Below the pieces are notes generated by a model. It searched no databases. It saw only the letters and a program-made list of their open reading frames with translations, and was not told the origin of the DNA. Position numbers and translations under genes: made by a program. Positions 10,081 to 48,203 of a DNA stretch of 48,203 nucleotides are shown piece after piece. Origin of the DNA: Planctomycetaceae bacterium (GTDB lineage Bacteria > Planctomycetota > Planctomycetia > Pirellulales > Pirellulaceae); assembly GCA_007694185.1 (NCBI GenBank), contig RECD01000101.1, positions 1-48,203 of the forward strand. Direction: 5' to 3'. Each line of letters begins with the position of its first letter. The first letter of the stretch is position 1.

Positions 10081-11555
10081 ATGCCGAACAGGACCAGACA
10101 CACGATTGACAACGCGGTGAGCATCCCGTGTTCACGCTCGCCGGGCGATCGGTGCGGAAAGTCGCTCGGCGTTTTCATTACGATCTGTCGCACGCTGATG
10201 ATGCTCGCGTTGCTCTGCAAGCCCGCGACCGCCCAAACGGTTCAAGTCGGCGATTGGCCGGCCCCCCTGCGAGTGGTCGCGGAGGAACTTCCGCCCGTTT
10301 CGGACGCAGAGATCGTCGAGTCAGAAGGTGGCGGGCCTTGGCTTTCCTTGAGCGATCTCGATGAGCAATCTCTGATCGATCTGAGACGCGACCCTTGGAT
10401 TCGCTTCGGCAGCCGGCTATCGGGGGAGCCTGACGAGTTGTCTAGCGACGACGAACCACCGTCTTCGGCGTCAGGTGCAACCGGTTACGGGATCAGGACC
10501 CGCCACGGATTGGTGTCTTCGGGGCACTTTATGAAACGGTGGAGTACCGATTGGAATACGACTTCGCCGAAGAGGCTCGCCCTCGGTTTCTCGACAACTG
10601 GATCGCCCTGACCAACATCCCGGTCGTCCGTAACGTGATCGTCGGCCACTATTTCGAGCCTTTCAGCCTGGAACGCTACACGCCAAACCGGTTCATCACG
10701 TTCAACGAACGCTCCTTGGCCGATACCTTCGCCCCAGCCAGAAACATGGGGATGATGATTTACGGCAATGCTTTGGACGAAAAGCTGACGTTCGGCGTGG
10801 GCGCGTTTCGATCGAACAGCAACGATTACGGGGAAGACGTTTCCTACCGTTCGGGCTATGCCGGTACGGCCCACGCGACCTATCTGGCTTGGTTTCGAGA
10901 ATTGAACGAATACCAAGTCAGCTTGCTGCATCTCGGCGGGTCGTTTAGTTACCGAACATCGGGAGACGATCCGGTTCGCTACGCGACGCGACCGAGCATC
11001 CGCATGCGACAACAGGACGTCGCCGGTGTCCCGGTCTTTGTCGACACGGGCGAGATGCCGGATGTCAGCCAGATTTATTTGGCGGGTGTGGAAGCGGCTT
11101 GGGTCCATGGCCCGTTTTCGGTCCAAAGCGAATACATCCAATCTCAGCTAGTCCGTACTGCGAATGACAACCCGACTTTCCATGCCGGCTACGTTTACGG
11201 CAGCTGGTTTTTGACAGGCGAAGGCCGTTCGTACAGCCCTACCAGCATCCTCGGCCGTTTTCGTGAGGGGATCTTTCAACGGATCACGCCCCGCAGCAAC
11301 GTCTTTGATCGGAGCGAACGTCAGGGCTGGACCGGGCTGGGGGCGATGGAGTTGGCCGTCCGCTGGTCTTACATCGACCTGAACGACGCCGGCGTCCGCG
11401 GCGGCTACATGGAAGAGATGACGTACGGCGTCAACTGGTACCTGAACAAGTACACCCGCGTCTCGCTGAATTACGTCCGTCCGGACCTTCACGACCCGGA
11501 TCAGGGAGAAAGCGACGCGAACATGTATTCTTTGCGGTTCCAGTTCGAATTCTGA
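10081..11555 (+). pseudogene. Phosphate-selective-porin-like (OprO/OprP) gene with a frameshift
   Basis: Two adjacent frames together make one outer-membrane porin. The first (ATG at 10081, or 10198 for a shorter leader) gives a signal peptide (TLMMLALLCKPATAQ) and mature N-terminus up to about GYGIRTRH. The second continues RIGVFGALYETVEYRLEYDF from about 10506 and runs through VGHYFEPFSLERY, ITFNERSLADTF, VYGPFSVQSEY-like WVHGPFSVQSEYIQ, YVYGSWFLTGEGR and a terminal strand MYSLRFQFEF. The join is a -1 change near 10500-10510, as from loss of one base; no slippery heptamer is present. Everything else is intact, so a sequencing or assembly error is as likely as a recent mutation. The family forms trimeric anion or phosphate channels. 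Confidence 0.7.
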
Positions 11556-11599: not shown

Positions 11600-11657
11600 T
11601 TTGATGGGTGGCACCTTCCGCCGTTTCGTTTGATGGGTGGCACCTTCCGCCGTTTCG
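11600..11657. repeat. Perfect 29-bp tandem duplication with GTGGCACC core
   Basis: Two identical 29-bp units lie at 11600-11628 and 11629-11657. Each starts TTTGATGGGTGGCACC and ends TTCCGCCGTTTCG. Read on the minus strand, the core GGTGCCACCCA matches the palindromes at 43374-43501 and the copies near 47.4 kb. The outer arms pair less well here, so these look like degenerate or partial copies of that family. They lie between the porin-like gene and the tRNA gene. Confidence 0.85.
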
Positions 11658-11900: not shown

Positions 11901-11974
11901 GCCAGCGTAGCTTCAATTGGTAGAGCATCGCATTCGTAATGCGAGGGTTGCGGGTTCGAGTCCCACCGCTGGCT
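11901..11974 (+). tRNA. tRNA-Thr (anticodon CGU)
   Basis: Acceptor arms GCCAGCG (11901-11907) and CGCTGGC (11967-11973) pair fully. The D-arm is GCTT/GAGC with a GG in the loop. The anticodon stem TCGCA/TGCGA encloses TTCGTAA, giving anticodon CGT, which reads ACG (Thr). The T-loop is TTCGAGT. The T-stem GCGGG/CCCAC has one C-A mismatch at position 50/64. The discriminator base is T and no CCA is encoded. A promoter-like pair precedes it. Confidence 0.9.
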
Positions 11975-23216: not shown

Positions 23217-26200
23217 ATGGATGCCACGCAACCGCAGCGCCCGCCCAAACGTCCGTGGCGTTTTCTGATCGCCCTGGCGGTCGGAAACGCCATCGTGCTC
23301 GGCTATTTTCTCGCGCCTCAGACGGTCGGGGAGCAGATTCGGCGGGAATTGGTGACCCAACTTCGGGCTCATTACCCACACCTGGAAGTCCGCATCGGTT
23401 CGGGAAGGATCGGCACGAACGGGACGCTGACACTGCAGGGGATCGAACTTCGGACGATCCCACAGCGATTCGGACAGAAATCGCTTCCGGTCCTTCAGGT
23501 CGGCCGACTGGAGGTGCTCGGCAGAATCGAGCTGGATCGATTGCGCGAGGGCAAGCCTCCGATCCGTCCCGACAAGGTGATCGCATCGGACGTCGTGGCC
23601 GACCTGTGGCAGGGGGCGGATGGCCGTTGGTCCGCCGAATGGCTCTGGCCGCCGCTCCGGATGGATGACGAAGACCTACGGATCGAGATCCGGTCGGGGA
23701 GACTGCGGGTCCATCGAGATGACCGGCTGGAACAGCGACCGCTTGAAATCGACCAGATCGACGCGGTACTCGACCTGCTCGGCTCAAACCCAACGCCGGA
23801 CGCGTTATCCGTGGCTGACAGGACGGCGGACCCAAGTGGCGAGAAAACGACCGCGGCATCCTCGAGGGATGGCGAAGAACGGTCTTTCGAGTTCCGTTTT
23901 GAGGTTCAGGCGGCCGCCCCGTTCATCGATTCGGTCACGTTGTCCGGCGACGTATCCGGCGGGCGACTCCGTGTGGCGGGCCAGGCGAATGGCGTGCGGA
24001 TGGATCCCGTCGTTGCTGCCCGCTTGCCGCGCGGGCTTGCGGAACGGTGGTCGGATTTGCAGCGAGTCAGCCTGTTGGCGGACCTGCGTTACGAATTCGA
24101 AGGGAGCTTCGGAGGTTCGCAGGCCCTTCCCGATGGTCCCTTGCGAGGACTCGGGATCGCGTCGACGGCGGGGCGGGGGAACGGCGATTGGCGATTCTCC
24201 GTTGACGGATTGGTCCGGGACGGTCGCCTGGAACATGAGTGGTTGCCCCAGCCGCTGGAGCGGCTTCGCGGTCAATTTGCTTTGCATCCTGGCGGCATCG
24301 ACATTCTGAACGCCGCGGCCCGTTTGGGAGAAGCGGAATTGCGATTGTCAGCGACGGCCGATTCCTGGTCGAGCCAAGCCGATTGGCGCGGCAAGCTGCA
24401 AGCCGACGGGCTGCTGATCAACGCGGCCTTGGCTGAGAAAATGCCGGGGCGTGTCGGCGCCGTTTGGCAGGACCTGCGTCCTCAGGGCCAGTTGGACGTC
24501 GACGTGGACTGGGAGCGAAGTGCCGGCCGCTGGTCGTCCTGGGGCGAAACTCGCCTGCTCGGGGTCGATGTCGAATGGGCGGATTTCCCCTATCCGATCG
24601 CTCAGTTGACCGGTACCGTCGAGTTTGACGAGACAGGAGCCAGCAGCGACGGGTTGGTCGGTCGGATCGGCGGACGGAGTTTGAATGTCGCGTTCGACCA
24701 TAAGGAGGGAGCCGCCAGCCGTTCCAATTGGCTGGAACTCGCCTGCGACGGCCCCGTCACGATCGACGCGTCGTTGATCGCCGCGTTGACGGGGCGAGAC
24801 AAGCCGGAATCGGGACTGGAGCGGTTCGTCCGCTCCCTTTCCCCCGGTGGCCAGATCCACTTGGCGGCCGCCAGGTGGGACCGCGATGCAGCTGGTAAGA
24901 AGCGTCATTCGATCGATCTGAAGGTCAGTGGCGGGACACTCCGTTACGAGGGCTTTCCCTATCCGCTGTACGATGTCCGCGGCCAGATCCTTGTCCAAAA
25001 TGAAATCACGCGACTGATCGGTTTCCAAGCTGGCAACAGCGACAACGCGAAGATCCTCTGTGAGGGTTACTTCCTCGATGTGGCCGAGCGATCAGAACCG
25101 CCGTCGCAAGCGAACTCGGCCTCGGCCGAGCGTGCGCCCGCAGCGTCCGTATCCGCCGCAGCCACCACCCCAAATCCGGAAAATGCCGTGGGTGGCAACG
25201 ACGGTTGGCGGCTGGCGCTTCGGTTTCAGGCCCGCGACCTGCCGCTCGACGAGGCGCTGCGAGCCGCGCTCACCCCCGATTCTCGCGCGATCTGGGATAA
25301 CCTGTCGCCGACCGGGGTGCTGGATCAAGCAGAGGTCACCGTGGAACACGTCGAGGCGTGGGAAGAGCCGCGAATCCTGATTTCGGCCCGCCAGGCGGCC
25401 AAGCCGACGATCGACAACCGCACGATCAGCCTCCGACCGGTCGACATCCCCTACCGGATCGACCTGGTCGAGGGGGCGATGCGATACGACGGCGACATGG
25501 TCTGGATCGATTCACTCGACGGTCGCCACGACTCGACCCGGATCTCGGCGACGGGGCAATGTCAGCGGAATGAGTCGGGGCGTTGGCGGATGGATCTGAA
25601 CATCCACAGCGGCAGCCGCCTGCACCCGGATACCGAATTGATCGGTTCGTTGCCGGCCCAGGTTCGGGGCGGTTTCCAACGGTTGCAGTTGCGCGGGCCG
25701 CTCAGCGCACGCGGACGAGTCGGCGTTTGGTTGCCGGACGCGCAGTACCTGGATCCGGCCTTCGACTGGGACATGATCCTGCAATTGGAGGGGAACCGGA
25801 TCGGCGACGTCGGCCCCGTGCGGGACCTGCGTGGCGAAATCACGATGCGCGGCTCCCAAGACGCCTCCTCCGCTTATGCCGAAGGGCTGGTCAGCATCGA
25901 CTCGATGCACATCGGGTCGCAACAGATCACGACCATCCGCGGCCCCTACGTGATCCGGAATGGGTTGCTACTGCTCGGAGACGCGATCCCGCCTCCGGAC
26001 AACTCGCCTCGCACATCCGGCGGATCTGTCGGAGCCGATTGGATGACCACCCGAGGCCGGCCACTCTTCGGGAAGGTGTACGGCGGTACGGCGTCGTTGT
26101 CGGGTGAGGTGTTGCTGAACGACGGCTCGTTCGATGTGCTCGTGGCGATCGCCGATGCCGATGTCAGGACGCTGTTGCGGGAATTGGGCCAGGCCGACAG

Positions 26201-43353: not shown

Positions 43354-43780
43354 GCAAGCCCGGTCCTCCCCCTCCGAAAGGTGCCACCCACTTTTCACCG
43401 AAAGGTGCCACCCACTTTTCGGACGCCCCGAGGGCGATGGCGGCGCGGCCCTCCCTCCGGAAAGTGCCACCCACTTTTCGGAAAGTGGCACCCACTTTTC
43501 GTCCCAACTTTGGGCGGGCTTACCGAGGGCGATGGCTGCGGACGCATCCCACGTCACTGCTTGTCCGTGACTTATCGGTCATCGGTCGCTCGGTCATCGC
43601 GGCGACCGGATCGAAAAGGGAATGGCTTCCCAAAACTGACGAGTTGAATGCGGCTTACGAAACGGTATCGGCGGGTACAGTCAACCGTGTTACATTGACG
43701 CCGCCGGGTCAGCCGAATTGCTCTGCTCGGTCGACGGAGTGCGATCGTTGAAGCCAAACCAAGAATCGGAAGAGGGATGG
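43354..43780. other. Intergenic region with palindromic repeats before the SNF2 gene
   Basis: About 430 bp. The left third holds four palindromic repeat copies (43374-43501). Between about 43502 and 43780 I see no repeat or RNA; the promoter of the helicase gene should lie there. Confidence 0.6.
43374..43501. repeat. Cluster of four REP-like palindromes
   Basis: Four copies at 43374-43396, 43398-43422, 43457-43481 and 43479-43501, all in the same orientation and all containing GTGCCACCCAC or GTGGCACCCAC. The second copy folds with left arm CCGAAAGGTG, loop CCACC and right arm CACTTTTCGG (10 pairs, one of them G-T). The third has left arm CCGGAAAGTG with the same loop and right arm, keeping 10 pairs with the G-T at a different place, so pairing is preserved despite base changes. 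The copies are paired at about 22-24 bp spacing. Confidence 0.85.
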
Positions 43781-46700
43781 ATGGGCCGGAAAAGACGTGG
43801 GAGTCGCAGCAACGGCGGCGGTTTTCTACCCAGCAACATCGCGGCCAGGCTGCGGAAGGTGCTCGCCGGCGGGAATGTGAATCTCGACGATTTCACCTCG
43901 TCAAACCTCGGGAATCTGTTGGAGGCAATTCCAGACGAACCGCGTAGGGTCGCTCGCGAGATCCCCAAGTCTGGACAATGGGAGTTGGCTGTCGAGGAGA
44001 TTGTTGAATCGCTGCCGGACGAATGTCAGGGCATTGCGGGGTACGACAACGCTTCCTACCGAATCGATCGCGTCTACGCGTGCGGAGAGATCCAGGGCAG
44101 GTGGACATATGACGACGAAACCTTTGAAATCTTTGTCAACTGCGGCGGCGAACTGCCCCCCGCAGGATGCTCGTGCGAGGCTTCTGACGGCCAACACCCG
44201 TGCATGCACATCGCCCAGTTTCTTTACTTCCTCAGCCGTCAGTTGCAATATGAAACCGCTCCGCTGAGCGTTCGAATCAACCGCGACGATTTCACTCCCG
44301 GCACCCCTTCACGTGATCGGTACCGGCCTGACCGAGGCTTACTGGCGATCGCCCGCCTCGATGACATCCTGGTCCGCGCCTCGAGCCGTCCGGCGGCGGC
44401 CCGTCTCGAATCGGAGGGTTTGCCGGCGTTGGCTGAGGTATCCCTGGAACGGATCGCGTGGACGGTGAGCGGGAATGGCGGGGTGCTTGAGGTGCGTCCG
44501 CTGCTCCAGCAGCAAAAGAAACGGGGCACCGGGTACACCCAAGGCCGTAAGCTAGCTTTGGAACGACTCAAGACAGACGCCGATTTGCCGCTGACACCGG
44601 CGGATCGCGAGATCGTCAACGAGATCTCGGTCCGCAAAGAGGGCTATGGGTACAATTTGTCGTGGAGTCTCGATCCGATCGAGGCGATCCAGCGATTGGT
44701 CGGTCACCCGCATGTTCTCTGCAACGATCAGCCTTGTCTGGTCAAATCCAGCGAGTTCTATCTCGAACTGATGGAAGACAACGGCTTGTGGCGTTTCTTT
44801 CTTCGCGTGGAAGGGGCTGATCGCCTGGCGGGACCTGTGTTTACGACTGACGAGACGCTCGTCCACATCGATCAGAAGACGCCTCAGGTCCTGTTTGGTC
44901 GTTTGCCTGCCTGCGGGTTTCAACCCCTGCGGGCGTTGCTCCAACTTGCCCCGGTCCAAAGCAAGCACGCCGAGTCGTTATTCGAAAAGGCTCGGCGTCT
45001 GCAAGCGGTTCTACCGCTCCGGCTACCCGAGCAGGTCGGCGGCAGGATCGTGCATGAAGAGTTTCGCCCTGCCTTGTTATTGAGATCCCGTGTCGACGGG
45101 TCGCTCGATTATGGGTTGCGGGTGCGGAGCGCTGACGGACGGTTGCTCCGACCGGGCGGTGACTCGACGCTCCGCCCCGACAAGATCGCGGGTGAACCGG
45201 TGCAGCGACAGCGAAACGTCGCCGCCGAAACCGAACGCTGCCTTCGGCTGGCTGACGATTTGGGTATCGACCCTCGGCCATCCGATCATTGGCACGGGTC
45301 GATTCGCGATTTCGCCAGCGGGTTGAAGCTCGTGGAATCGCTGCCGTCGCTCGGCGATGAGGTCGAAATCCTGTGGGACGAGTGCGGCGAAAAGCCCTTG
45401 ACGGTGCTCGGTCACCTGACCAGCAAGAATGTCCGAGTCGATATCACCAGCAAACGGAATTGGTTCGGGATCACGGGCAAGTGTGATATCGGGGGGCGGT
45501 CGATGCCGCTCGACAAGTTGCTGCAAAGCCTCCCGCAGGGTTCTGATACCGAGAACATTCGGGGCGATTATGTTCGCATCGCCAGCGGCCAATGGGCGAG
45601 GGTTTCGGAAAACCTCCGCAAACGGCTCGAACGGCTTCGCGATGTGACTTACGAAAACCGCAAGTCGCTCGCCGTGGATGCCACCGCAGCGCCGGCGATC
45701 CGGGACCTACTCGACGGCGACATCGAGGTCAAAGCGACCAAAAATTGGCACGAATGCTTGGCGCGACTCGGACGCGCTGAGCAACTCGACCCCCAGTTGC
45801 CGTCAGGCCTGCAAGCCACGCTCCGCGATTATCAGATCGACGGCTACAAATGGCTCCGGCGGTTGGCCGAATGGGGAGTCGGCGGAGTCCTGGCGGACGA
45901 CATGGGCCTCGGGAAGACGCTACAGACGCTCGCCGTGCTGCTCGACCGCCGCGACAACGGACCGACCTTGGTGATCGCGCCTACTTCCGTCGGGTTCAAT
46001 TGGGTCCGCGAGACCGAACGGTTCGCTCCCGAACTTCGACCACACTTGTACCGCGAAACCGAACGAGCTGATTTTCTCCCCGGCGTGGGACCGGGCGACC
46101 TCGTCGTCTGCAGCTACGCGCTGGCCCTCCGAGACGCCGACGCATTGGCGAAGGTCAAGTGGGGCACGCTCGTGATGGACGAGGCTCAAGCCGTCAAGAA
46201 CAGCCGCAGCAAAACGGCCCAGGCGATCGCCGAGTTCGACGCCCAATGGACCGTAGCGCTGACCGGCACGCCGGTCGAAAACCATCTCGGGGAATTGTGG
46301 AGCCTGTTCCATGTCGTTTCCCCTGGCGTCTTCGGCGGCTGGGAGCAGTTCCGTCGCCGCTACGCTTTGCCGATCGAAAAACACGCCGACGCCAACGCCC
46401 GGGCGTTGCTGGCCACGCGTCTGCAACCTTTCGTTCTGCGGCGAACCAAGTCGGAGGTGTTGACGGAATTACCGCCGCGCACCGAAATGAACCTGTATGT
46501 CGAACAGAGTGCGGAGGAACGGCAGCAATACGAACGCGTTCGGCTTTCGGCACTGGGCGAGATCGACGAGATCGCGTCACTGGGAAGCGTCCAAGACCAA
46601 CGCTTCAAGCTGCTCGCCCTGATCACGCGACTGCGGCAATTCGCATGTCACCCCGGGATCGTCAACAAACAGTGGACCGGTTCGTCGGCAAAACTCGATC

Positions 46701-47203
46701 AGTTGTGTGAGACGATGATCGAACTGAAGGAAGAGGGCCATCGGGCGCTCATCTTCAGCCAGTTCACGCAGCACCTCGACTTGATCTGCGGCGCGCTCGA
46801 CGCTCACAAGATCAGCTATCAATACCTAGACGGCTCGACCCCGGCGGCCACCCGCCAACAGCGGGTCGATGCGTTCCAAGCCGGTGAAGGCGATGCGTTC
46901 CTGATCTCACTCAAGGCGGGCGGGACGGGGCTGAACCTGACCGCCGCCGATTACGTGATTCACATGGACCCATGGTGGAACCCGGCGGTTGAGGACCAAG
47001 CGACCGACCGTGCGCACCGATTCGGCCAAGACAAGCCTGTCATGGTTTATCGGATCATCACGCGGGGAACGATCGAGGAGGAGATCCTGTCTCTGCATGA
47101 TGCCAAACGAGACCTCGTCGCCAGTGTGCTCGAAGGGACGACCGCAGCAGGAAAGATGAGCACCCAGGAACTGATGGAAATGCTCCGCGGAACCTCCAAC
47201 TGA
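43781..47203 (+). CDS. SNF2-family helicase/ATPase with SWIM zinc finger
   Basis: 1140 residues from the ATG at 43781, preceded by AAGAGG at 5 bases; the frame is open back to 43718. An N-terminal SWIM motif Cys130-x-Cys132-x8-Cys141-x-His143 lies in CSCEASDGQHPCMH. The middle 500 residues match the SNF2-associated region of bacterial HepA-like proteins. The C-terminal motor shows LRDYQIDGYKWLRRL, Walker A DDMGLGKTLQ (Lys712), Walker B VMDEAQAVKN, LTGTPVENHLGELWSLF, LRRTKSEV, LIFSQFTQHLDLI, SLKAGGTGLNLTAADYVIHMDPWWNPAVEDQATDRAHRFGQ. It translocates along DNA to remodel protein-DNA complexes; the bacterial role is unclear. No nuclease or methylase partner is adjacent. Confidence 0.93.
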   Translation: MGRKRRGSRSNGGGFLPSNIAARLRKVLAGGNVNLDDFTSSNLGNLLEAIPDEPRRVAREIPKSGQWELAVEEIVESLPDECQGIAGYDNASYRIDRVYACGEIQGRWTYDDETFEIFVNCGGELPPAGCSCEASDGQHPCMHIAQFLYFLSRQLQYETAPLSVRINRDDFTPGTPSRDRYRPDRGLLAIARLDDILVRASSRPAAARLESEGLPALAEVSLERIAWTVSGNGGVLEVRPLLQQQKKRGTGYTQGRKLALERLKTDADLPLTPADREIVNEISVRKEGYGYNLSWSLDPIEAIQRLVGHPHVLCNDQPCLVKSSEFYLELMEDNGLWRFFLRVEGADRLAGPVFTTDETLVHIDQKTPQVLFGRLPACGFQPLRALLQLAPVQSKHAESLFEKARRLQAVLPLRLPEQVGGRIVHEEFRPALLLRSRVDGSLDYGLRVRSADGRLLRPGGDSTLRPDKIAGEPVQRQRNVAAETERCLRLADDLGIDPRPSDHWHGSIRDFASGLKLVESLPSLGDEVEILWDECGEKPLTVLGHLTSKNVRVDITSKRNWFGITGKCDIGGRSMPLDKLLQSLPQGSDTENIRGDYVRIASGQWARVSENLRKRLERLRDVTYENRKSLAVDATAAPAIRDLLDGDIEVKATKNWHECLARLGRAEQLDPQLPSGLQATLRDYQIDGYKWLRRLAEWGVGGVLADDMGLGKTLQTLAVLLDRRDNGPTLVIAPTSVGFNWVRETERFAPELRPHLYRETERADFLPGVGPGDLVVCSYALALRDADALAKVKWGTLVMDEAQAVKNSRSKTAQAIAEFDAQWTVALTGTPVENHLGELWSLFHVVSPGVFGGWEQFRRRYALPIEKHADANARALLATRLQPFVLRRTKSEVLTELPPRTEMNLYVEQSAEERQQYERVRLSALGEIDEIASLGSVQDQRFKLLALITRLRQFACHPGIVNKQWTGSSAKLDQLCETMIELKEEGHRALIFSQFTQHLDLICGALDAHKISYQYLDGSTPAATRQQRVDAFQAGEGDAFLISLKAGGTGLNLTAADYVIHMDPWWNPAVEDQATDRAHRFGQDKPVMVYRIITRGTIEEEILSLHDAKRDLVASVLEGTTAAGKMSTQELMEMLRGTSN

Positions 47204-47719
47204 CGTCGCCCCGACAAGTCATCGATTCGCCCGAAACGCTGGGGAATCTGCGGCGAACGACACGGACTTGATCAGCGTTTGCCTCGTCCAACCGGTTTTC
47301 CGAGTGAGCACCCTGCGGCCTGCCGGTGTGGACTTCGGGGAATCGAGCGTTGGTTGGCACCTTCCGCAGGGTCGTTCCGCAGGGTCGGGAAACGATCCAT
47401 CGCCGGTGACAGCCGCTCCTTCGGAACGTGCCACCCATCTTGCGGGCTGTTCACGATCGCACCAGGCGCGGACGGCGGTAGGCAAACGGCTGGAGGGGCC
47501 TCGGACGGATCGGCATGGCTGACGGTGAAAAGTCAGGGCCAGGCCCGCCGCTCGCACCGTGTCAGGCCGCCTCCCACGAGGCGGATCGCTGGCTATCGAC
47601 CTATGGGCGGGGCCTGAACGGATGATTGCAGCGATCACACACCGCCCTGGAGGCCGGATGGGCCTTGCGGTCTGGACCGGCGATTATGCGGAGGCGGCGA
47701 GCAGACGGCTCGGCTACGG
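47204..47719. other. Intergenic region between the SNF2 gene and the transposase-like fragment
   Basis: About 515 bp between convergent genes, with no convincing reading frame. It contains the inverted repeat pair at 47354-47445. Beyond 47446 nothing recognisable was found. Confidence 0.55.
47354..47445. repeat. Inverted pair of palindrome-core copies with a 13-bp tandem duplication
   Basis: TTGGCACCTTCCGC (47354-47367) and CGGAACGTGCCACCC (47422-47436) are inverted copies of the same core, 54 bp apart. Just inside the first copy, TTCCGCAGGGTCG is duplicated in tandem (47362-47374 and 47375-47387). The arrangement of two inverted copies around a short spacer recalls the doublet form of REP elements. 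Confidence 0.7.
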
Positions 47720-48203
47720 TTAAGCCGCGACGAAGAACGCTCGCGCGGTCTTCTGACCTCGGTGCCAACCTCGGCCGTGACGCTGCGCGTCTTCGGCCAT
47801 CGCCGGCGACGATCCCGCACACGAGCCCCGGCCAAAGTACTTCTTGAAATTCCACACCAGCTCACGCCACATCGACGCGTCGATTCCCTGCGACGCCAGC
47901 AACTTCGCTAGCCTCGGCGGCACCTTCGCGTTCATGCCGTCGAACGCCTGCTGAGCCGTCCATCGCAGCAATTCGAAGTAATCCCGCCAACTGAGTTGCA
48001 AAAACCCCTTGTCGCTCGCCCGCAGTCCCGAAGTGTGTACCTGGGGCTGATGCGACAGCGTCTCTGGAGCGAGTTGCAAGGGCGCCAGCCATTCGTCACG
48101 CCGGATGCGGCGTCCCGTCGGCGCCCGCTTCTTCGCCCTACGTTTCGCCTTCAACACCGCCACCGGTGTCTCTCGAATCTCCTTCCCCGCCGCTGCCGTC
48201 TCG
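47720..48203 (-). CDS. C-terminal part of a transposase-like (RAYT-type) protein
   Basis: The frame is open through the right edge, so the N-terminal part with any HUH/Y1 catalytic motif is outside the window; about 160 residues are visible. The stretch RASDKGFLQLSWRDYFELLRWTAQQ, then MWRELVWNFKKYFGR, and the tail AQRHGRGWHRGQKTARAFFV match what I recall of the C-terminal region of planctomycete proteins whose N-terminal half is a Y1 (IS200/REP-associated) transposase. An in-frame GTG at 48163 is probably internal. The basic stretch KAKRRAKKRAPTGRRIRR would suit DNA binding. Copies of the short palindrome family lie 270 bp downstream. Confidence 0.65.
   Translation of the reverse strand, partial: ETAAAGKEIRETPVAVLKAKRRAKKRAPTGRRIRRDEWLAPLQLAPETLSHQPQVHTSGLRASDKGFLQLSWRDYFELLRWTAQQAFDGMNAKVPPRLAKLLASQGIDASMWRELVWNFKKYFGRGSCAGSSPAMAEDAQRHGRGWHRGQKTARAFFVAA

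Follow-up and report, generated by a model that had tools for sequence, protein, structure and literature searches.

Intergenic hairpin-like repeats of a Pirellulaceae genome are probably related to the ends of a mobile REPtron-like unit encoding a HUH/Y1 transposase

We analysed a 48,203-nucleotide stretch of DNA from a Planctomycetaceae bacterium of the family Pirellulaceae (contig RECD01000101.1, assembly GCA_007694185.1; hereafter the window). It makes up the whole of contig C221 in a genome of 5.78 Mb assembled as 288 contigs (G000, hereafter the own genome). The window contains copies of a short dispersed repeat and, at its right edge, part of a gene for a REP-associated tyrosine transposase (RAYT; REP, repetitive extragenic palindrome). 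RAYT genes of this type lie between two inverted copies of the dispersed intergenic repeat, which is the layout of a REPtron. From the placement and orientation of the repeat cores around these genes, together with gene copies in the own genome whose 5' ends start at the hairpin, we therefore conclude that the system is a REPtron with, in addition, the behaviour of an insertion sequence (IS); the link between repeat and gene is positional. The dispersed repeats are, in our judgement, quite probably non-autonomous relatives of the ends of this mobile element. A sequence-only reading of the window had proposed a planctomycete REP/RAYT system. The enrichment of the core and the Y1 nature of the protein agree with that proposal; the repeats are not canonical GTAG REPs, and the gene unit itself looks mobile in the manner of an IS.

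The repeat is abundant in the own genome. The 10-mer core GTGCCACCCA occurs 131 times in 5.78 Mb, compared with 11 occurrences of the reversed control, and a 16-mer that extends it (GTGCCACCCACTTTTC) occurs 22 times compared with none for controls. The genome-wide count for which the sequence-only reading had called thus gave an excess of about 12-fold, mostly outside genes: called genes contain 5 of 104 core sites and the other 99 lie outside them, while coding sequence makes up 70% of the bases in the same loci (genes were called at the repeat loci with a codon-usage caller trained on 22 open reading frames [ORFs] of the window). Neighbouring cores within 300 bp of each other, among 100 listed copies, are direct in 41 cases and inverted in 5, and 38 of the 41 direct neighbours are spaced by 21–62 bp. 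Repeat clusters crowd the contig ends (34 of 54 lie at most 700 bp from one, positions that comprise about 7% of the genome bases), and the repeats therefore probably interrupt the assembly. At one contig end (L030, G000:C86:1-430), nine cores form a higher-order tandem array of ~130 bp.

Around RAYT genes the cores have a defined place and direction. We collected 66 planctomycete loci, 60 of which are distinct when their first 201 gene bases are compared. A core with at most one mismatch lies 50–140 bp upstream on the gene strand in 47 of the 60 distinct genes. Counted over all 60, the 400 bp upstream hold 61 plus-strand and 3 minus-strand cores, and the 700 bp downstream hold 47 on the minus strand and 1 on the plus strand; a downstream core is found in 27 of the 52 genes having at least 400 bp of downstream sequence. 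Pairs of plus and minus cores ~1.5 kb apart recur in named genomes.

The own genome carries one intact copy of the gene, on contig C27, which encodes a protein of 388 residues. It also contains five more 5' ends (on C165, C197, C41, C228 and, with stops, C178) and four more 3' ends (C221, the window itself, and C143, C6 and C19), most of these partial copies being cut by contig ends. Four of the five other 5' ends match C27 from position 2700, two bases before the core; the match of the fifth, C178, starts at 2708, 8 bases later. In G023, G117 and G112, pairs of gene copies (99.3%, 98.2% and 96.0% identical, respectively) have nearly identical interiors and different outer arms, and their left ends lie 1–9 bases outside the core. 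The left hairpin is therefore a boundary common to the own genome and three other genomes. At the right end, the window copy (gene plus flank) aligns to C27 at 80% and to G088:C167 at 82%; the match to C27 ends 6 bases past the core (window 47422) and that to G088 8 bases past it, and one G112 copy stops with the core. Judged from these alignments, either IS-like movement or recombination at the repeats may explain the shared boundaries. Remnants of the gene were also seen: a divergent N-terminal piece on the strand opposite to the intact C27 copy and immediately upstream of it (C27:2192-2338), and pieces with stops at C178:147-914 and C178:3457-3615.

In the window these elements are arranged as follows.

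43381–43391, plus strand: dispersed repeat core, copy 1, a match to GTGCCACCCAC with at most one mismatch
43405–43415, plus strand: dispersed repeat core, copy 2, matching GTGCCACCCAC with at most one mismatch
43464–43474, plus strand: dispersed repeat core, copy 3, likewise within one mismatch of GTGCCACCCAC
43485–43495, plus strand: dispersed repeat core, copy 4, reading GTGGCACCCAC
11604–11614, minus strand: dispersed repeat core GTGCCACCCAT, in a gap between ORFs of at least 120 residues
11633–11643, minus strand: dispersed repeat core GTGCCACCCAT, in the same gap
47428–47438, plus strand: right-end (downstream) hairpin core of the RAYT unit, GTGCCACCCAT, inverted relative to the gene
47354–47366, minus strand: second repeat GTGCCAACC, degenerate and lying past the right end, found by inspection, with two core mismatches
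47422–47719, minus strand: 3' non-coding part of the mobile unit, from the alignment to C27 and G088:C167
47720–48203, minus strand: C-terminal 160 residues of the RAYT (TnpA-Y1), with subclass 2.3 motifs, 93% identical to the C27 C-terminus; the gene runs off the end of the contig

With at most one mismatch, GTGCCACCCAC has 9 matches in the window, compared with a mean of 0.81 and a maximum of 5 in 100 shuffles. The block of four copies reported at 43374–43501 is there, with cores starting at 43381, 43405, 43464 and 43485, and so are the degenerate copies reported at 11600–11657, as two minus-strand cores read from 11614 and 11643 (the bounding ORFs of at least 120 residues end at 11555 and 11585, and the next starts at 11917). 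The inverted pair placed at 47354–47436 held in part: its core at 47428 is intact, and the second arm, whose minus-strand reading is GGAAGGTGCCAACC, is only degenerate. All of these copies had been called intergenic, and none lies inside a called gene, though mechanical ORFs overlap some. Two further matches, reading TTGCCACCCAC, lie at 25188 and 34586, outside what that reading covered. A gene for an SNF2-type helicase (43718–47203; Pfam SNF2-rel_dom and Helicase_C) follows directly downstream of the four-copy block.

The fragment at the right edge had been described as transposase-like, and it is the C-terminal end of the multi-copy, minus-strand HUH/Y1 protein. We read the missing N-terminal part from the intact C27 copy and 17 relatives (alignment A1, 18 sequences). 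The HUH pair, H72 and H74, and a catalytic-type tyrosine, Y184, are present in all 18, and are equally invariant in a second alignment of 33 sequences (A2); the full protein does not lack a Y1 domain. The Y---NP motif is found in 16 of 18 sequences in A1 (the other two read YVDLNL and YVDLNV) and in 33 of 33 in A2. All 33 relatives match the NCBIfam family REP_Tyr_transpos (NF047646) at E ≤ 0.01 and, in the two proteins with scores shown (39.8 and 40.2 bits), miss its curated cut-off of 80 bits; by these profile scores the RAYTs here are a distant branch relative to the NF047646 equivalog. In a search of the own genome at E ≤ 0.001, C27 and C178 are the only copies of the RAYT gene that NF047646 detects. 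By itself the Pfam model Y1_Tnp gives weak matches, with E = 0.011 for C27 and E ≤ 0.01 for 21 of the 33 members. An AlphaFold (AF2) model of a homologue from Planctomycetes bacterium TBK1r (L144; pLDDT 87.8) has as its top match in the PDB the E. coli TnpA-REP bound to a REP hairpin (4er8; Z = 12.1, rmsd 2.6, 159 of 165 residues), followed by the IS608 transposase (Z = 6.3); a Foldseek search with the model gave E = 3.7e-4. Unlike the fold search, a search of PDB sequences using the family profile returned nothing significant.

Within the RAYT classification the proteins appear, on motifs and architecture rather than a published tree, to fit TnpA-Y1 subclass 2.3. The available text of PMC6006769 gives this subclass the motifs WE, YVDLNP and TS, a 55-residue insertion between beta3 and alphaC, hosts in Chromatiales and Alteromonadales, and no REP; automatic and manual searches are stated there to have yielded no REP-like sequences for subclasses 2.1 and 2.3. 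FWEGRF occurs in 17 of 18 sequences in A1 and 28 of 33 in A2, YVDLNP in 15 of 18 and 32 of 33, and TS before DR in 18 of 18 in A1, with a TS-DR-like motif (our own pattern) in 21 of 33 in A2. In the model, 57 residues (80–136) separate the strand at 72–79 from the helix at 137–155, which we assigned as alphaC ourselves. The HuH motif reads NHLH, NHMH, NHIH or NHVH in A1, and NHYH in 2 of 33 sequences in A2; the NHYH of the paper is a MEME consensus. Annotated Pseudoalteromonas relatives have 324 residues and a Shewanella one 325, the subclass 2.3 median being 325 residues and C27 having 388.

The arrangement extends beyond planctomycetes. Relatives occur in Shewanella and other gammaproteobacteria, in Verrucomicrobiota and in the acidobacterium Acanthopleuribacter, which with the planctomycetes makes four phyla; viral contigs gave one short match only. 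Inverted flank-to-flank matches reading GGACACCCA, GCCACCCAT and GGCCATCCA recur in many, not all, of 28 loci. At 36 distant loci (planctomycetes included), sites matching G[AC]CA[CT]CCA number 37 plus and 0 minus upstream and 49 minus and 8 plus downstream, with upstream sites in 31 genes and downstream sites in 20. In an orientation test fixed beforehand, on 13 genes from gammaproteobacterial plasmid records, all 26 sites had the predicted orientation (15 to 0 upstream, 11 to 0 downstream); seven of the genes are from Pseudoalteromonas, and sites at the same locus are partly tandem duplicates and hence non-independent. An upstream site was present in 8 of the 13 genes and a downstream site in 7; the Vibrio, Photobacterium and Catenovulum genes of this set had neither. 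The 60 planctomycete, 36 distant and 13 test loci partly overlap.

Loop type tracks the protein tree. Over 53 rows, 50 of them labelled, it changes 8 times, and none of 1000 shuffles of the labels gave fewer than 16 changes; with the close clade removed, it changes 7 times against a shuffle minimum of 12. In 96 distinct sites from the distant and test loci, arm positions 5–7 pair above swapped arms (equalled in 6, 4 and 0 of 3000 swaps) and the inner four do not. A 9-mer core was ~1.4–3.2 times as frequent as its reversed control in 11 of 14 records from outside Pirellulaceae, and about equal to or below the control in G167, W01 and W02; the 9-mer being too short and the control crude, we make no claim from it for dispersed families outside Pirellulaceae.

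The sequence-only reading had also suggested comparing RAYT presence with repeat number among related genomes. We did so in 149 family genomes, with assignment to Pirellulaceae judged from named relatives and with association statistics that ignore kinship. A RAYT match at E ≤ 1e-10 is present in 97 of the 149. At least 20 cores were found in 12 of the 30 genomes with a close RAYT (E ≤ 1e-150), compared with 8 of the 119 others (Fisher p = 2.4e-5, relatedness uncorrected), and the 52 genomes lacking a match at E ≤ 1e-10 are not enriched, with a mean of 3.1 cores compared with 3.5 for the control. One genome with a 52% identical RAYT (G096) holds 72 cores, and long arrays there flank two of the genes on both sides in the expected orientation. 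The R. baltica genome that L179 comes from has 12 cores compared with 5 controls; the available text of PMC3733652 describes many tyrosine transposase genes with flanking repeats in R. baltica.

The own-genome consensus of the repeat is CGGAAG-GTGCCACCCAC-TTTTCG (from 98 copies that differ from the core by one base at most, and from a set of 92 carrying the exact 10-mer). The core is conserved far better than the arms, partly by construction, the copies having been picked by their core. Beyond GTG/CAC the stem has a mean of 2.84 pairs in the own genome, compared with 2.39 when arms are swapped (11 of 3000 swaps equal it); the excess is smaller in the 92-copy exact set (2.90 compared with 2.56; 85 of 5000 swaps as good), and single arm pairs, taken individually, are not significant. 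Arm pairs beside the core are paired at 0.63 on the GTGCCACCCAC strand and 0.25 on the opposite strand. In other planctomycetes (203 copies, 191 distinct arm pairs) the means are 1.35 pairs and 1.12 with arms swapped (5 of 3000), and in 45 copies upstream of RAYT genes the first four arm positions are 63% paired compared with 53% when swapped. These pairing statistics suggest that the repeat is likely a hairpin, but the conserved part is the core. The G-T pairs that had been said to shift place do differ in position between window copies (beside the core in copies 1 and 2, at the fourth position in copies 3 and 4), but the change is one-sided, the 3' arm being identical in all four. The GT[AG]G 5' foot of canonical REPs is absent from the base frequencies of the 98 own and 203 other copies. 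We also considered whether the GT[AG]G foot might lie on the other strand, where the core complement begins GTGG, and set this aside because by eye no stem follows GTGG.

Copies upstream of RAYT genes are followed by TTGA within 3–18 bases in 34 of 47 cases, compared with 2 of 47 within 14 bases on the other side, and the word is TTGAC in 32 of 47. The hairpin lies beside this word, and binding to the repeat may therefore also control the RAYT gene.

Several observations weigh against the REPtron-like reading. Fewer than 20 cores are present in 18 of the 30 close-RAYT genomes, and within one genus four of six genomes (G002, G069, G135 and G144) hold 21–34 cores, with RAYTs that are distant in G002, G135 and G144 (41–43% identical) and none found in G069; the genes of G135 and G002 have core-like sites upstream and that of G144 has none. 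The right boundary is uneven: three other own-genome copies lose homology within ~100 bp of the stop codon, right-end homology falls short of the core in G117, and G023 has no right core. The left ends of ten pairs in G147 spread from 0 to −119, and an empty site was not found in four same-genus genomes, which are too diverged. Arm pairing barely exceeds that of swapped arms, and outside the own genome the GTGCCACCCAC strand is not favoured (1.35 compared with 1.51 pairs, with A-C replacing G-T). Finally, flanking arrays in G105 violate the upstream orientation rule. This genome of the same family (loci L122–L131; protein 53% identical) has near-identical RAYT genes, with 11 listed copies of which 10 were fetched, and arrays of a different core (GGTGGGTGCC or GATGGGTGCC on the gene strand) flank them in the same orientation on both sides, which we cannot explain.

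Under the explanation we prefer, the autonomous unit would be ~1.5 kb long and consist, in order, of a left hairpin, ~65–140 bp with a likely promoter, the gene for the RAYT, which would act as a HUH/Y1 single-strand DNA nuclease-transposase, ~180–470 bp, and an inverted right hairpin. The transposase would most likely recognise the small single-stranded hairpin through its conserved loop, GCCACCC closed by T-A and G-C here and G[AC]CA[CT]CC in the wider family, and its tyrosine would cleave at or beside the hairpin. The whole unit, or hairpin-only pieces mobilised in trans by the RAYT, would thereby be moved or copied, yielding dispersed, often tandem, intergenic copies. The sequence-only reading had the protein mobilise or maintain the hairpins; we infer likewise that it may cut, mobilise or maintain them.

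An ordinary IS with short terminal inverted repeats, in which the dispersed cores are decayed ends and miniature inverted-repeat transposable elements and the hairpin has no role, is an unlikely account of these data. The multi-copy genes, some nearly identical, the common left boundary, the inverted ends and the weakness of the arm pairing would all fit it, but direct tandem arrays of short period (38 of 41 at 21–62 bp) are unlike solo ends, and arm pairing does lie, if weakly, above that of swapped arms. Related Y1 enzymes, as far as they have been studied, act on single-stranded DNA. Slightly less likely again, we believe, is that the core is a double-stranded regulatory site for the RAYT (through its C-terminal domain) or for another factor, the flanking copies being operators and the dispersed copies a regulon. 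Conservation of the core far above the arms, in part a product of how copies were picked, and the −35-box-like TTGA after most upstream copies would suit an operator; operators alone would not be expected to form tandem arrays (41 direct, 5 inverted), to lie inverted in the 3' flank or to mark, with their core, the boundaries of recent gene copies.

We give very little credence to the repeats being RNA elements (terminators or mRNA stabilisers) that were amplified independently and adjoin RAYT genes incidentally. They are hairpin-like and intergenic and tolerate G-T on one strand in the own genome, as such elements could be, but their orientation is consistent around the planctomycete, distant and test genes, genomes without a RAYT match show no mean enrichment, and an Rfam search of three loci gave no match.

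If the repeats do derive from the ends of a REPtron-like element, the system offers a new, testable mode of recognition and natural settings in which to watch REPs spread. The available text of PMC8266576 describes RAYTs as domesticated genes close to housekeeping genes and the spread of REPs as an open question. Recent copies of the RAYT gene here have the repeat itself as their left boundary, and a repeat grammar defined by the loop, not the foot, would be common to a large protein branch thought to be REP-less. We lean modestly towards a broader proposal, in which this TnpA-Y1 branch (subclass 2.3, four phyla) has its own REP superfamily read by the loop heptamer G[AC]CA[CT]CC and not by a GTAG foot, and the Pirellulaceae gene, still moving with its ends, is a living intermediate between IS200/IS605 and domesticated REP/RAYT systems. 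The present repeat family is not described in the available text of PMC6006769, PMC3733652, PMC8266576 and PMC2817692, and among the matches listed in a literature search for GTGCCACCCAC or its complement none was on bacterial repeats, judged by title or start of abstract. As far as we searched, the repeat family, the conservation of loop type, the presence of repeats in what seems to be a branch reported as REP-less and the multi-copy units bounded at the repeat are new.

Among known systems, TIRtrons and their TIRYT proteins share with the present unit a tyrosine transposase and inverted flanking repeats that can be dispersed; some of their repeats share GGGGWSAS (available text of PMC3733652), a difference drawn by comparison of text only, with overlap in R. 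baltica possible. IS200/IS605 elements (IS608, ISDra2) share the Y1 fold, hairpin ends and a mobile unit, but here the motif is Y---NP (YVDLNP) rather than Y---Q, the ends are inverted, the protein has 388 residues rather than the ~150 of tnpA, and the fold is nearer to TnpA-REP. Subclass 2.3, as far as the available text of PMC6006769 describes it, is similar in YVDLNP, WE and TS, probably in the extra beta strand-helix segment within the core, in the long C-terminus, in several copies per genome and in members from Shewanella and Pseudoalteromonas, and differs in being listed there with NHYH and no REP, where we find mostly NHLH, NHMH or NHIH, planctomycete hosts and repeats. REPtrons as such are already known (PMC2817692, PMC8266576). 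Relative to the text available on them, the present system lacks a GT[AG]G foot, is conserved in the loop or core rather than the foot, has a long protein with extra domains and a multi-copy gene sharing a hairpin boundary, and has neighbouring repeats that are mostly direct, not alternating. It resembles them in its HUH/Y1 class 2 protein with Y---NP, in the two inverted flanking copies of a dispersed intergenic repeat, in a repeat number related to gene presence and in a repeat type that follows the protein tree.

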